A DNA stretch of 14,826 nt, from assembly GCA_003132905.1 (NCBI GenBank), contig PKZC01000324.1:12641-27466 (forward strand), written 5' to 3'. The position numbers and the translations under genes were made by a program. Position 1 is the first letter of the stretch, and the number at the start of each line of letters is the position of its first letter. Positions 5,868 to 11,575 of this stretch are shown piece after piece. The notes beneath the pieces are model-generated. The model had not been told where the DNA came from. It worked only from the letters and a program-made list of their open reading frames with translations, and searched no databases. Origin of the DNA: Bryobacterales bacterium (GTDB lineage: Bacteria; Acidobacteriota; Terriglobia; Bryobacterales; Bryobacteraceae).

Positions 5868-7781
5868 ATGTCTTCTTCACCTCAACCGATACCGAGCGGG
5901 AGTGATTACATCGCTTCCCTTGGAGGCTTTCCGCAGCCCAACCGGGTGGGAAACGAACGGCGTCGCGTTTGTGTGGCAGATCTTGTGATGGAAGCTGCCA
6001 AATCTTTTCCAGAAGCAGTGGCTCTCTCGCAAGGCCGCGATACCCTGACGTACGGCGAACTGGTGGCTCAATCCACCCGCCTGGCTAGCTACCTGATTGC
6101 CCTCGGCGCAGGTCCTGACGTGGCAGTAGGGGTGTGCCTGGAACGTTCCTTCGATTTCATAGTGTCGGCGCTGGCTGTGTTGGTATCGGGCGCAGCGTAT
6201 CTTCCTCTGGACCCCGCTTGGCCGGCCGCGCGTTTACGTACTATTCTGGACGACGCTCAGGCGCCTCTGGTCATCTCGCGCGGTTCGCTAGCCAAACGTG
6301 TTTCCGGGAATGCAACCCACACCATCGATCTGGATACAGCCGCCGATACACTTCAGCTCTGCGATCCTTTAACTGAACCCGTTGCCATAACGCGCGATCA
6401 CTTGGCTTATATCATTTACACGTCCGGATCCACCGGACAGCCAAAGGGCGTCGAGGTGACGCATGGCAATCTTTTGAATCTCATCTTCTGGCATCGGAGC
6501 ACTTTCGGCGTCACTGCTGCCGATCGCGCCAGCCATCTTGCCGGACTCGGATTTGACGCCGCTGCCTGGGAGATCTGGCCGCATTTAACTGCCCGCGCGA
6601 CCGTGGTGCTGGTAGAGGATCAAACTCGCACATCGGCCGATCTTCTGCGCGATTGGCTGGTCAAAGAGCGCATTACAGTAGCATTCGTTCCGACTATCTT
6701 CGCCGAATCCATGCTTGCCAATTCGTGGCCGCCCGAAACGGCTCTCCGGTATTTGCTTACGGGCGGCGAGGCATTGCATCGATATCCGTCGGCGGGACTG
6801 CCTTTCGCCGTAGTAAACAACTATGGCCCTACCGAGTGCACCGTGGTAGCGACCTCGGGGCTGATTCCAGTCGACCGGCCTTCAGATTTGCCGCCATCCA
6901 TCGGCAAGCCCATCGCGCACATGCAAATCCGTATTCTCGACAATCAGGGCCATGCCGTTGCGCCTGGCCAAACCGGCGAGATCTTTATCGCTGGAACCAG
7001 CGTCTCCCGCGGGTACCGCAACAATTCCGCGTCCACCCAGGAACGCTTCTTGGTGGATTCGATGAGTCCTCGCGCCGGCGCGCGGATGTATCGTACCGGC
7101 GACCTGGGCTGTTTGCTTCCCGACGGACAAATCGCGTTTCGCGGGCGCCTGGACAGCCAGGAACAGATTCACGGTCACCGCGTTGAGCCGGACGAAATCG
7201 TATGCGCCCTGAACCGTCACCCGGGCGTTGCTGCGAGCGCGGTAATCGCACGGAGCCACAACAGCAGCAAACCCTCTGCTCCCAAATCTCTGGTGGCTTA
7301 CGTGGTGCCGCAAGCAAGTACGGTGCTTTCGGCTTCCGGTTTACGCGAATTCCTTTCGGCGACCTTACCTCATTACATGGTCCCGTCGACGTTCGTGAAG
7401 ATCGCGGAACTGCCCTTCAACTCGAACGGCAAACTTAATCGCGAAGCGCTCCCCGAACCGGCCCCCGGCAATCGCATTGAAGATACCGGTTATCGGGCGC
7501 CTAGTACGCCGACCGAACAAATCCTGGTCGAAATCCTGGCCATTCTCCTGGAAGTGGATCGCGTGGGAGCCGATGACAATTTTTTCCTCCTGGGATTCCA
7601 CTCGTTGCTGGCAACTCAGGTTGCGATCCGCGTCCACGAGCGGTTCGACATTCAACTCGGCCTGCGGCATCTATTCGAAGCCAAAACGGTAACGCGGTTG
7701 GCCGCTGAGGTGGATCGCCAGCTGATTGAAAAGCTAAACTCGATGAGTGACGAAGAAATCGCGCGCCGCTTGGCAGACTAA
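5868..7781 (+). CDS. Stand-alone NRPS adenylation-carrier protein (A-PCP), predicted leucine
   Basis: This 637-residue protein activates an amino acid as its adenylate and loads it on its own carrier domain. A-domain core motifs are present: YTSGSTGQPKG (184-194), FDAAAWEIW with Asp230, NNYGPTE (317-323), YRTGDL, and NSNGKLNR with catalytic Lys522. Aligning to GrsA numbering gives the ten pocket residues D230, A231, W234, F273, L297, G299, N318, V326, V327, K522. Together these read DAWFLGNVVK, a recognised leucine code. The carrier domain (about 545-620) has its phosphopantetheine Ser579 in LGFHSLL, where LGGHSLL is usual. There is no condensation domain. The C-terminal tail (LNSMSDEEIARRLAD) looks like a docking helix. 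In-frame TGA 5832 limits the start to ATG 5868, with only a weak ribosome-binding sequence. Confidence 0.93.
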   Translation: MSSSPQPIPSGSDYIASLGGFPQPNRVGNERRRVCVADLVMEAAKSFPEAVALSQGRDTLTYGELVAQSTRLASYLIALGAGPDVAVGVCLERSFDFIVSALAVLVSGAAYLPLDPAWPAARLRTILDDAQAPLVISRGSLAKRVSGNATHTIDLDTAADTLQLCDPLTEPVAITRDHLAYIIYTSGSTGQPKGVEVTHGNLLNLIFWHRSTFGVTAADRASHLAGLGFDAAAWEIWPHLTARATVVLVEDQTRTSADLLRDWLVKERITVAFVPTIFAESMLANSWPPETALRYLLTGGEALHRYPSAGLPFAVVNNYGPTECTVVATSGLIPVDRPSDLPPSIGKPIAHMQIRILDNQGHAVAPGQTGEIFIAGTSVSRGYRNNSASTQERFLVDSMSPRAGARMYRTGDLGCLLPDGQIAFRGRLDSQEQIHGHRVEPDEIVCALNRHPGVAASAVIARSHNSSKPSAPKSLVAYVVPQASTVLSASGLREFLSATLPHYMVPSTFVKIAELPFNSNGKLNREALPEPAPGNRIEDTGYRAPSTPTEQILVEILAILLEVDRVGADDNFFLLGFHSLLATQVAIRVHERFDIQLGLRHLFEAKTVTRLAAEVDRQLIEKLNSMSDEEIARRLAD

Positions 7782-7796
7782 TTCGGGAGAAATTCA

Positions 7797-9017
7797 ATGA
7801 GCGCTGATATCAGCTTGTGTCAGCTCACCGAACCGGACGTCATGGCGTCTCCGTACCGGTTCTATCGAGAGCTGCGCGAAGCCGACCCGGTGCATTGGGA
7901 TCCGTTCCTTCACGCCTGGGCAGTTACCCGATATGTCGACATTGTAACTGTGCTCACTCGTTTCTCGGCCGACCGCACTCTCACAGCCGAGCAGTTAGAC
8001 GGCATGGGACTCGGCGGCATGAAGCCGATTATTGAGGTGATGGCGCGACAGATGTTGTTCCGCGATCCGCCTGCTCACACCCGCCTGAGAAACCTGTGCG
8101 CCGCGGCATTTACTCCGGCTCGAGTTGCGGTTCTGCGCGCGCATATTCAAGACATCGCCGATAGCCTGATTGACAAATTCATTGGCCGGGGAACGGCTGA
8201 CATCGTAGCCGATTTGGCCGCGCCGATGCCAGCCATTGTTACAGCCGAAATGCTGGGCGTTCCCGTGAACGATCACGAAAAGCTAAAGCAATGGTCTATC
8301 GACTTCGCGGAAATCCTGGGTAATTTTCAACATCAGCCCGATCGCGTAGCGCGCGTGGCCGCCAGCGTCCGCGATATGACCGATTATTTTCGCGCCGTCA
8401 TTCGCCAGCAGGAGACCGATCCCCACGAGGGATTGGTGAACTCGCTGGTGCAGGCGCAAGTGGACGGAAACCGTCTTACGGAAGAAGAAATCATCGCCAA
8501 TTCAATTCTCACGATGATTGGCGGACAAGAGACATCCACGAATCTGATCAGCAGCGGCTTGCTGACTCTGCTGCGACATCCCGAGCAGATGCGCATGCTT
8601 TTGGACGATCCGTCCCTCATCACCTTGGCGGTTGAAGAATTGCTGCGATATGAGAGCCCCATCCAGCACACGGCGCGGGTGGCCCACGAAGATTTCATGC
8701 TGGGCGGGAAACTGATCCGGCGCGGCCAGTCCGTGGTGGCCGTTCTGGCGGCTGGCAATCGCGACCCCGAACGCTTTCCCAATCCGGATTTGCTGGATGT
8801 AAAGCGCGGCGATAAGGGGCATCTGGCGTTCGGTTGGGCGGCGCACTTTTGTTTCGGCGCTCCGCTGGCACGCATCGAAGGGCAAATTGCCTTCAGTACA
8901 CTTTTGCGGCGTTTGAAGAACTTAGAGTTGGCATCGGAGGATTTCGGTTGGCGTGAAAATTTCGGCTTGCGAGGTCTCAGTAGCCTGCCGGTTCGCTTCG
9001 AGGCTCGCAACGAATAG
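7797..9017 (+). CDS. Cytochrome P450, probable oxidase of the carrier-bound amino acid
   Basis: This 406-residue soluble bacterial P450 starts 15 bp after the A-PCP gene behind GGGAGA. Visible signatures are the C-helix DPPAHTRLR, the I-helix oxygen-activation motif GGQETS with Glu245-Thr246, the K-helix ExxR (Glu281-Arg284), and the heme loop FGWAAHFCFG with Cys352 as heme ligand. The usual heme motif is FxxGxHxCxG, and here the fourth position is Ala348 instead of Gly. Position between an A-PCP and a C*-PCP-TE gene matches P450s that hydroxylate amino acids tethered to carrier proteins, as NovI with NovH or NikQ with NikP1. Beta-hydroxylation of Leu is the simplest guess. Redox partners are not in the window. 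Confidence 0.93.
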   Translation: MSADISLCQLTEPDVMASPYRFYRELREADPVHWDPFLHAWAVTRYVDIVTVLTRFSADRTLTAEQLDGMGLGGMKPIIEVMARQMLFRDPPAHTRLRNLCAAAFTPARVAVLRAHIQDIADSLIDKFIGRGTADIVADLAAPMPAIVTAEMLGVPVNDHEKLKQWSIDFAEILGNFQHQPDRVARVAASVRDMTDYFRAVIRQQETDPHEGLVNSLVQAQVDGNRLTEEEIIANSILTMIGGQETSTNLISSGLLTLLRHPEQMRMLLDDPSLITLAVEELLRYESPIQHTARVAHEDFMLGGKLIRRGQSVVAVLAAGNRDPERFPNPDLLDVKRGDKGHLAFGWAAHFCFGAPLARIEGQIAFSTLLRRLKNLELASEDFGWRENFGLRGLSSLPVRFEARNE

Positions 9018-9051
9018 AGGCTCGCAACGAAATAGAGGCAAGCAACGAATA
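9000..9051 (+). repeat. Three-copy 17-18 bp tandem repeat at the end of the P450 gene
   Basis: GAGGCTCGCAACGAATA (9000-9016), GAGGCTCGCAACGAAATA (9017-9034) and GAGGCAAGCAACGAATA (9035-9051) follow each other without gaps. The first copy encodes the last residues of the P450 (EARNE) and supplies most of its stop codon. The other two fill the space to the ATG at 9056. They look like slippage duplications of the gene end. Confidence 0.9.
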
Positions 9052-9055
9052 ACCG

Positions 9056-11575
9056 ATGACCACGCCCGACACCATTTCGGAAGCCCGCCGGCAACTGCTC
9101 GAAAGATTCCGCCGAGGTGAATTGCGTGCGTCCAACGGGGCGCTGGCAACACCTCTGGTTGCGCGGCCAGCCAGCGGGGACGCTCCCATTGCACCCGACC
9201 TGGAGCAACTGTGGATTCACGATCGGCTTGCCGCCGGCGCTGCCATCAATAACGAATCGTTTATCATTCACAAACGGGGTTCGCTAGCCCCCGCGATCCT
9301 CGAACGCTGCTTTAACGAGATTGTCTGTCGTCATGAGATTTGGCGATCCGCGTTTCCAATGGTCGATGGGAAGGCCGTTCAGCGCATCGATTCGCATGTT
9401 CACGTGCCATTGGCGTTTGACGACCTGAGCCATCTTCCGATGGAAGAGCGCGAAGAACATTCTGTTCGAATCGCGACCGAAGCTGCCCAACGTCCCTTTG
9501 ATTTGAATGAAGCGCCGCTATTCCGCGTGAGCCTGGTTCGATGGTCTGAGCATTACCATCGGATCTATCTCACAGTGCATCGGCTGGTCTTCGATTGCGT
9601 CTCCATCGAGCGCGTTCTTATTACGGAGCTGGCCGCGCTGTACAAGGCTTTTTCAGTTGGCCAGCCATCTCCACTTCCTGAACTCGCGTTCCAATATAGC
9701 GACTACGGCGCCTGGAAGCAGCGCCAAGCAGCCGGTGCCAATCAAGCGGCGCAGCTGGAATACTGGCGAAAGAATCTCTCGGGCGATCTGACGCCGGTGG
9801 AACTGCCGGCGGACCGACCACGACCTGCGGAGCCGACCTGGCAGAGTGGAATGGAAACATGCATGCTTCCGGCACAGGTGGTAGAGAAGCTCAAGGAATT
9901 CGGCCAAGCCGAAGGCGTCACGCCTTACATGATCCTTTTGGCTGCGTTCCAGGTTTTGCTGCATCGGCATTCGGGCCAGACTGACCTCATCATCGGCGGC
10001 AAAACCAATTCGCGCGCCAGGTCTGAATTTGAGCCATTGATCGGGTCTTTCGTGAACACGATTGTCCTGCGAACTGCAATCGAAGCCGAGGTTTCGTACC
10101 GGGAGTTTCTGGGATGCGTCAAGAGCACCGTGCTTGGAGCGCTGGCGCATAGCGAGATTTCGTTCGACGATGTGGTCCGTGAACTTGCGCCTCAGCGCAC
10201 AAGCCTGCGTCACCCGTTGTTTCAGGTTCTGTTCTCCATCCGGGCGCCCTTCGCCGATTTTCCCGATGGCTGGGATCTTACCGATTTCGAAGTACACAGC
10301 GGCGCTTCCGGGTTTGACCTTTTCGTGGAATTTGCGGAGCTTTCGCAGGGATTGGCTGCGCGCTTCGTATACAGCACCGATCTGTTCGACCGCACCACGA
10401 TCCAACAATTGCAGCAGAAGTTCCAAGTGCTCCTGCAAGACTTGCTTGCGAATCCTCAACAATCCGTTTCGTCGGACGCTGCTCTCGAAGCCGCCCCGAC
10501 TTTCGTGCGAGCCGAGCAACGTCAGTTCGTTCCACCGCAGGATGAAATCGAAGAGCGCCTGGTGAACCTGTGGCAAGAGCTGCTGTCCAGGGAATCCATC
10601 GGCGTCACCGATAACTATTTCGACCTGGGCGGCGATTCTTTACTGGCAGTCCGGCTTTTCGCCGACATCAAGTTTTGTTTCCAGCTCGAATTGCCGCTAG
10701 CCACCCTGTTCCATGCCCCAACCGTAAGAACTATGGCCCAGGTCGTCCGCGATTCCGGCGTTCAAGCCGCCTCGCCCATCGTTCCTATTCAACCCGGCGG
10801 CACTAAACCGGCGATCTTTTGCATTGGTCCGGTGAACGGCGAGGTGATCCTGTTCCGTCGCCTGGCGTTGGAACTTGGACCGGATCAGCCTTTGTACGGA
10901 CTGCAGCCGTTCAGTTTGGCCGACCGCCTGGCAACCGTGCAGACATTAGCGGCCAGCTATATCGAACAGCTGAAAGCGTGGGGCGAGAATCGGCCGCAAT
11001 GTCTCTTGGGTTATTCATTCGGGGGCTTAGTGGCCGTGGAAATGGCTCGGCAGTTGCGTGAAAGTGGCGCGGAGCCGCCGATTGTGGTGCTGATCGATTC
11101 CGATTACTTGGCAGGCTGTAAAGCACTCGAACCCTGGAACGATCGTCTCCGCCGCTACCGCTTTCACGTACACAAGATCCTCCATGAGCCAGGCGGTTTG
11201 GCTCATCTGGTGGACCGGCTACGTTCCTATTCATTTCGGAAGATACACAAGTTCTCGACAGCCGCAGGCGTTGAAGTACCCCAGATCGCAACCGATATCA
11301 GAGGACGCCAGCTTTTAGCCGCCGAGAACTATCGCGCTAAGCCATACCCAGGCCGGGTGCATCTTTTCAAAGCGGAATCACGGCCGGAATTTTTCGCCAC
11401 CGATCCGGCCTTGGGATGGGGAGAGATTCTATCCGATCTGCGGATCGAAGAAGTCACCGGCGATCACGGGACAATTACCACGGGCATGAATGTGAAACTT
11501 CTAGCGGGAAAGCTGACAGCGGTCCTCGACAAAAATCAACTCACGCCCAGCCCACACGCTTGCGTAACTCAGTAA
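9056..11575 (+). CDS. NRPS C*-PCP-TE protein with degenerate condensation domain and no A domain
   Basis: This 839-residue protein has a short basic helix (about 8-23, ARRQLLERFRRGEL), possibly the docking partner of the A-PCP tail. A condensation-fold domain follows (about 45-470) with RHEIWRSAF, YSDYGAWKQ, IGSFVNTIVLR and RHPLFQVLF in order. Its active-site motif is HRLVFDC at 175-181 instead of HHxxxDG, so the catalytic second His is Arg176 and the Gly is Cys181. The carrier domain (about 500-570) has Ser528 in a normal LGGDSLL. The type I thioesterase (about 580-830) has GYSFG with Ser654, Asp681 in VLIDSD and His804 in GDHG, a complete triad. No adenylation domain is present. The gene follows the P450 by 38 bp, filled by tandem repeats, and has no clear Shine-Dalgarno sequence, so coupling to the P450 is likely. 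Confidence 0.92.
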   Translation: MTTPDTISEARRQLLERFRRGELRASNGALATPLVARPASGDAPIAPDLEQLWIHDRLAAGAAINNESFIIHKRGSLAPAILERCFNEIVCRHEIWRSAFPMVDGKAVQRIDSHVHVPLAFDDLSHLPMEEREEHSVRIATEAAQRPFDLNEAPLFRVSLVRWSEHYHRIYLTVHRLVFDCVSIERVLITELAALYKAFSVGQPSPLPELAFQYSDYGAWKQRQAAGANQAAQLEYWRKNLSGDLTPVELPADRPRPAEPTWQSGMETCMLPAQVVEKLKEFGQAEGVTPYMILLAAFQVLLHRHSGQTDLIIGGKTNSRARSEFEPLIGSFVNTIVLRTAIEAEVSYREFLGCVKSTVLGALAHSEISFDDVVRELAPQRTSLRHPLFQVLFSIRAPFADFPDGWDLTDFEVHSGASGFDLFVEFAELSQGLAARFVYSTDLFDRTTIQQLQQKFQVLLQDLLANPQQSVSSDAALEAAPTFVRAEQRQFVPPQDEIEERLVNLWQELLSRESIGVTDNYFDLGGDSLLAVRLFADIKFCFQLELPLATLFHAPTVRTMAQVVRDSGVQAASPIVPIQPGGTKPAIFCIGPVNGEVILFRRLALELGPDQPLYGLQPFSLADRLATVQTLAASYIEQLKAWGENRPQCLLGYSFGGLVAVEMARQLRESGAEPPIVVLIDSDYLAGCKALEPWNDRLRRYRFHVHKILHEPGGLAHLVDRLRSYSFRKIHKFSTAAGVEVPQIATDIRGRQLLAAENYRAKPYPGRVHLFKAESRPEFFATDPALGWGEILSDLRIEEVTGDHGTITTGMNVKLLAGKLTAVLDKNQLTPSPHACVTQ

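Follow-up and report, generated by a model that had tools for sequence, protein, structure and literature searches.

A reduced A(Leu)-PCP / P450 / C*-PCP-TE operon predicted to oxidise carrier-bound leucine and apparently derived from a dipeptide synthetase

NovH/NovI and NikP1/NikQ/NikP2 are discrete routes to free beta-hydroxy amino acids, each combining an A domain, a carrier (PCP), a cytochrome P450, and a thioesterase (TE). In glycopeptide synthetases, the X-domain lies between the last PCP and the TE, and terminal modules of the EntF type carry a serine code. For polyoxypeptin A, a discrete A protein (PlyC), PCP, P450 (PlyR), and TE have been proposed to supply free 3-hydroxyleucine, and the substrate of PlyC is given there as not predictable (PMC3943440). 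An earlier note on the DNA studied here had named no case with a leucine code and an inactive-looking condensation domain; since this route had already been proposed, the leucine part of that statement does not hold. X-domains with the motif HRxxxDE are described as inactive (PMC6565677), and the X-domain itself has been interpreted as what is left of a lost module (PMC8949500). The P450 partners of X-domains carry PRDD/PxDD at the F helix (PMC6565677, PMC8949500). Two P450s of NRPS pathways, Sky32 and Tem23, act on PCP-bound leucine and on leucine, respectively (PMC9321520). Among the open-licence papers listed in our literature search, none described the operon type presented below or a C domain acting as a transthiolase, which does not imply absence from print.

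The DNA analyzed here is a stretch of 14.8 kb (the window) in which three consecutive forward-strand ORFs at positions 5868-11575 encode, on the basis of Pfam matches and motif reading, a leucine-type A-PCP protein, a P450, and a C*-PCP-TE protein whose condensation (C) domain has an altered active site (C*). The A-PCP didomain (5868..7781, 637 aa) matches AMP-binding, AMP-binding_C, and PP-binding; the second gene (7797..9017, 406 aa) matches p450; and the third (9056..11575, 839 aa) matches Condensation (289 bits), PP-binding, and Thioesterase. The gene content proposed in the earlier note, namely a leucine-type A domain, two carriers, a P450, a degenerate C domain, and an intact TE, was confirmed by these matches and motifs, and the sequence also supports its A-PCP + P450 + TE logic. 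The ORFs are separated by spacers of 15 and then 38 nt. A 17-nt direct repeat in three copies (9000..9051, + strand) straddles the 3' end of the P450 gene and the spacer that leads to the C*-PCP-TE gene, and it could be a slippage scar. The remaining scanned ORFs of the window are non-biosynthetic (VWA, carboxypeptidase-regulatory repeats, SnoaL-like, YfiT/DinB, and a choice-of-anchor domain) or, in three cases, had no domain match, in agreement with the previous statement that no other biosynthetic gene is nearby. The VWA-domain protein at 2301-3383 matches NCBIfam TIGR03436 (acidobact_VWFA). No match to a phosphopantetheinyl transferase was found among the scanned ORFs, no Rfam match was obtained, and the search for promoters and terminators gave no signal exceeding that of shuffled sequences.

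Anchored without gaps on conserved motifs, the A domain gives the code DAWFLGNVVK, which in GrsA numbering we take to be a leucine code, and the serine of the first carrier (PCP1) is present in LGFHSL. The window thus has a code-bearing A domain, with predicted specificity, fused to a serine-bearing PCP. The residues DAWFLGNVV were found at the nine positions in 113 of 120 A-PCP proteins and by eye in four more, the others being one protein with Y at position 278 and two that lack the motif (a cruder first parse, with some positions unread, had given a leucine-type code in 87 of 118). The first A domains of the genome loci L002-L005, L023, and L024 also have the leucine code (6/6, by eye). These readings suggest that leucine is the actual substrate of the A domain.

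The P450 has both the heme string (AAHFCFG) and the ExxR motif (ELLR). Its relative P0129, labelled Bryobacteraceae by its source, is 97% identical, which makes this family (Acidobacteriota) the probable home of the host; the P450s of L002/L003 are 85-91% identical and those of the Caulobacter loci L004/L005 60-62%. At the presumed position of the F-helix motif, placed by eye without an alignment, the window P450 (P0002) reads GVPVNDHE. A plasmid search returned five P450s with 38-42% identity. The solved P450s listed first by sequence, among the best 60 of 444 matches, were BioI and PksS, and these 60 do not include the entries that we take to be P450sky and OxyD.

The C* domain (approximately residues 1-473; 9056..10474, +) reads HRLVFDC (H175, R176, D180, and C181; motif codons 9578-9598) where the canonical motif is HHxxxDG. 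C domains with arginine at the second histidine are here called HR, and those with both histidines HH. A tree of 87 C domains placed every HRxxxDC row, 33 in total, in a single clade (99/97). This tree comprised 80 of 121 proteins (the query and its 120 matches) and seven loci, and left out the fragments P0045 and P0054 as well as multi-C or distant matches. The clade was also monophyletic when the motif was masked (31 of 77 rows, 100/96); for the masked tree, the topology tests, and the branch test, ten further rows were left out (P0117, P0108, P0119, P0074, P0076, P0077, P0041, L005x, L023x, and L024x). The C* change therefore appears, from these trees, to have a single origin within a large clade. 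P0036 reads HQLVYDC, has no second A domain, and shows HH-type residues at sites 49, 65, 316, 331, and 333. In this protein the change of Gly to Cys at the motif end is seen a second time (HQxxxDC), and one origin for the HR clade and P0036 was not rejected (p-AU 0.242).

Comparison of 26 HR with 30 HH C domains revealed non-overlapping residues at sites 49, 176 (R/H), 181 (C/G), 316 (K versus A, T, or V), 331 (S/Y), and 397 (A versus P), and hardly any overlap at site 333. H176R and G181C were fixed in 26/26 HR rows. In total, eight sites are fixed in the HR clade (49, 176, 181, 235, 316, 331, 333, and 397); the HR branch accordingly carries eight qualifying differences, and no unrelated bipartition among the 24 testable ones has more than four. 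Sites 49, 176/181, and 331/333 belong to core motifs C1, C3, and C5. The same comparison yielded no separating site in P450s linked to HR versus HH C domains (13 versus 11) and one weak site in the A-PCPs (12 versus 12). With hardly any corresponding change in the P450 and the A-PCP, the front end appears to have retained its function, and the C domain would be either new in function or blocked. Mean identity was 68% among the 26 HR rows versus 72% among the 30 HH rows, and the new residues look fixed rather than drifting, which points to change rather than decay. A first AF2 model built from 22 rows was poor (pLDDT 60.5), and no reading presented here rests on it.

Downstream of C*, a linker (approximately residues 474-494; 10475..10537, +) marks the site where relatives have a second A domain or its scraps. 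It is followed by the second carrier, PCP2 (residues 500-563; 10553..10744, +), with serine S528 in LGGDSL, and by the TE (from residue 587; 10814..11542, +) with an intact triad (S654/D681/H804). The PCP2 serine is invariant in all 34 HR or HQ proteins examined, which suggests that PCP2 is still loaded and under selection to be so. The TE nucleophile in these 34 proteins is Ser in 30 and Cys in three, and is missing from one fragment; the catalytic Ser or Cys, Asp, and His and the PCP2 serine were retained wherever a protein extends that far. Cys in place of Ser occurs in P0055, P0057, P0058, L053, and many relatives with a fused second A domain (such as P0046-P0069), and PCP-TEs of two types are found in otherwise alike genes.

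The best 120 matches to the third protein included two main kinds, one of approximately 820-870 aa and one of 1340-1400 aa, and in the long kind an A domain separates C from PCP. The code of this second A domain was DVWHFSLVDK in 32 of 55 rows, which we take to be a serine code. It comes from four ungapped strings (FDVSVWE, ITTIHFVPS, RVFASGE, and LHNLYGPTEAAVDV), with H at position 278 taken by hand from ITTIHFVPS. P0019, P0051, and P0059 have a valine-like code, and distant rows differ again. Among rows longer than 700 aa, the second A domain was kept in 51/51 HH proteins; in the 32 HR proteins it was absent from 24, a remnant in two, and full-length in six (this count includes P0042, of 724 aa, whose TE ends before the histidine). 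The two remnants, P0012 and P0021, are reduced to the C-terminal subdomain, and shorter A-domain scraps persist in the linkers of P0013 and P0017. Four of the six full-length copies, belonging to one lineage (P0015, P0018, P0024, and L001), read TSGSTGVPN in motif A3, with Asn for the P-loop Lys, so only P0016 and P0041 look sound; both keep the A3 lysine, as do 31/31 HH rows examined. In the rows examined, the second A domain is absent only where the second histidine has changed, which also holds for P0036 and L053.

A single loss of the second A domain was rejected: forcing the split rows into one clade cost 201 log-likelihood units (p-AU 1.95e-9), although a second A domain regained by recombination would look alike. 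The multiple losses could therefore partly be regains, and P0016, whose second A domain groups with those of HH genes, may be such a case. HR and HH rows were mixed almost at random in the PCP-TE tree (39 rows, 10 changes, shuffled mean approximately 11) and mixed with weak clustering in the trees of the P450 (22 rows, 5 changes versus 7.4) and the A-PCP (23 rows, 6 changes versus 7.7). P450 and C modules appear to have been exchanged. The simplest history would be one change of the C site followed by several instances of damage to or deletion of the A domain, complicated by recombination. As the ancestor, the intermediates (with full-length, damaged, and scrap A domains), and the end form all exist, the likely order of events can be read: the condensation site changed first and the A domain was lost later. 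By this evidence, the window operon probably descends, through loss of parts, from an A(Leu)-PCP / P450 / C-A-PCP-TE dipeptide synthetase.

Related operons were found in 19 genomes of two phyla, and in 20/20 of them (each counted once, L002-L005 included) the P450 lies between the A-PCP and the C domain, in the same order and on the same strand. In L002 and L003, for instance, the order is A-PCP, P450, C-A-PCP-TE. Orphan genes are under-counted, because the operons were found via their P450 or C domain. Of the genomes sampled, 13 of 396 from the Acidobacteriota phylum and two of 289 from the Caulobacter class had P450 relatives. An A domain follows the C domain in 18 of the 20 operons, L045 and L053 being the exceptions. 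L053, from a distant genome, encodes an A-PCP, a P450, and a C*-PCP-TE protein with HFLVYDD and no second A domain; in its TE, Cys replaces Ser and Asn replaces Asp, and in this assembly the frame stops short of the TE histidine. In L045, the A-PCP and the P450 are accompanied by a C protein on its own, which reads HQSVTDG and has an internal gap. Both reduced operons are carried by the same genome (G445). The HRxxxDC split gene was absent from all fetched genome loci, and its linkage outside the window rests on contigs of equal length: at least 32 were common to the match lists of the third protein and of the P450 or A-PCP, and at least 11 to all three lists (eight with a split and three with a fused third protein), in a comparison that took 80/120, 59/120, and 44/120 rows of the three lists. 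A chance match of lengths such as 121228, 335730, and 2564547 is unlikely. The earlier note would have abandoned its proposal had the three genes not been conserved together in any relative; the 20/20 genome operons and at least 11 shared contigs indicate that they are. The HRxxxDC C-A-PCP-TE gene at L001:10001-14107 is an orphan: neither an A-PCP nor a P450 occurs within the 10 kb upstream and the 7 kb downstream of it, and the single P450 match of that genome at 1e-60 (61%) belongs to a different operon (L023). A phosphopantetheinyl transferase gene is located upstream of the operon in L002 (7292-8065, -) and inside it in L004 (11557-12195, +). In L048:6035-11575 (-) and L049:6480-11927 (-), the P450 and C-A-PCP-TE share one stop-to-stop frame, perhaps through a fusion.

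We estimate a probability of roughly one half (0.5) that this three-gene pathway oxidises carrier-bound leucine and frees a modified amino acid, most likely 3-hydroxyleucine, having been reduced from an A(Leu)-PCP / P450 / C-A(Ser)-PCP-TE dipeptide synthetase. Specifically, the A domain would put leucine on PCP1, the P450 would oxidise it there, C* would join PCP1 with PCP2-TE or hand the acyl group on without forming a peptide bond, and PCP2 and the TE would release the oxidised leucine. If the A domain loads leucine and the P450 acts on PCP1, the intact TE makes free oxidised leucine the likeliest product. Of this account, the sequence itself shows the gene content, the codes, the conserved order, the descent, the disappearance of the second A domain, the one origin of the C* changes and their fixation, and the invariant PCP2 serine; the leucine substrate, carbon 3, the absence of condensation, the route between the carriers, and the free amino acid are inferred. 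The acyl group might travel from PCP1 to PCP2 by trans loading or C*-mediated transfer, or the TE might act on PCP1. Several observations stand against this reading. P0016 and P0041 are HR proteins that appear to keep a second A domain with a sound code and core motifs; the mixing of HR and HH rows in the PCP-TE tree would fit a TE that releases similar products in the two forms; PCP2 would be superfluous if the TE acted directly on PCP1; and nothing points to carbon 3, the presumed site of oxidation, the first-listed solved P450s by sequence being BioI and PksS. C* is taken as probably non-condensing because a second-His-to-Gln mutant of the fuscachelin C3 domain retains approximately 1% activity (PMC8097023) and the Arg-bearing X-domains introduced above are described as inactive and blocked. 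A more daring version, which we put forward only tentatively, sees in C* a new working type of condensation fold, in which a newly fixed set of residues (Arg176, Cys181, Lys316, and Ser331) would carry the oxidised leucyl group across from PCP1 to PCP2. Cys181 might act as a relay thiol, and the A domain of the C* module would thereby have become dispensable and been repeatedly deleted.

It is also conceivable, if unlikely, that C* still condenses, the one A domain loading PCP1 in cis and PCP2 in trans to give an oxidised Leu-Leu dipeptide or diketopiperazine, a product that the earlier note had listed among its options. The invariance of the PCP2 serine where the second A domain is mostly gone fits this possibility, as something must then be loaded there. 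So do the HQxxxDG operons L040-L044, from five genomes of the Acidobacteriota phylum, which keep the second A domain and the TE; an altered second histidine may hence be tolerated in this family, and its loss need not mean that the dipeptide or condensation was lost. The residual activity of the fuscachelin mutant, the inactivity reported for X-domains, and the restriction of A-domain absence to proteins with a changed second histidine all weigh against it. We regard it as slightly less likely still that C* is an X-like docking platform for the P450 or PCP1, devoid of chemistry of its own, with oxidation taking place at the synthetase. Its His-to-Arg change is like that of the X-domain (HRxxxDE, HRxxxDD), beside a P450 gene and in an A-less module, the X-domain being thought a relict module too, and in L045 the C protein stands alone behind the A-PCP and P450; yet the P450s show no site that would indicate a new interface, five of the eight sites fixed in C* belong to core motifs C1, C3, and C5 and not to a known P450-binding face, and P450 and C modules were apparently exchanged. 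Least plausible by far is a decaying dipeptide operon with no product, which the linker scraps, the altered P-loop lysine in four second A domains, and the orphan gene of L001 would suit, but which is at odds with 24 split relatives longer than 700 aa, the C* identities given above, the retained catalytic and carrier residues, and new residues that are fixed instead of drifting.

Release of oxidised leucine thus remains our preferred reading, of what seems to be a real, conserved, and reduced NRPS/P450 operon whose A-PCP/P450/TE tailoring is of a kind already known and whose separately derived, non-canonical C domain is unusual. The probable reduction from a dipeptide synthetase, the single origin of C*, and the apparent selection on PCP2 for loading go beyond the earlier note. 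The locus offers an assembly line caught while shrinking. It also provides an independent instance of a C domain that acquired the His-to-Arg change next to a P450, so that ideas on how X-like domains originate can be put to the test. The three-protein system is also a very small model for the role of a non-condensing C domain, and the pairing of its A(Leu)-PCP/P450 front end with interchangeable back ends might be useful in engineering.

Several known systems come close to the window operon. In Acidobacteriota, the A(Leu)-PCP / P450 / C-A(Ser)-PCP-TE operons at L002 and L003 have the same genes, order, and leucine code as the window. Together with their Caulobacter cousins L004 and L005, whose second code differs, they keep HHxxxDG and the second A domain, unlike the window, and we know of no product for operons of this type. 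Modules of the EntF type share the C-A-PCP-TE order and the serine code with the ancestral form, whereas in the window the A domain is gone and the C site changed. The glycopeptide X-domain (teicoplanin, kistamicin) resembles C* in its C-type fold, the second His replaced by Arg, the lost Gly, a P450 partner, and the idea of a relict module. However, the last motif position is Cys in the window and Asp or Glu (HRxxxDD/HRxxxDE) in X-domains, C* precedes the PCP-TE, and an ordinary C domain gives it a higher score than an X-domain does. Membership of the X-domain family was rejected on motif (HRLVFDC) and position (before the PCP), and the two His-to-Arg changes, although alike, would have arisen separately. 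Finally, the Nov, Nik, and Ply pathways (PlyC-PlyD/Q-PlyR-PlyS in the last case) are like the window in using one A domain, a carrier, a P450, and a TE for a single oxidised amino acid, here with a P450 conserved as a unit with the A-PCP and a TE that has its catalytic triad. The window differs from them in having a whole C*-PCP-TE module, presumably inherited from a dipeptide synthetase, in place of a lone TE, and in standing apart from further pathway genes.
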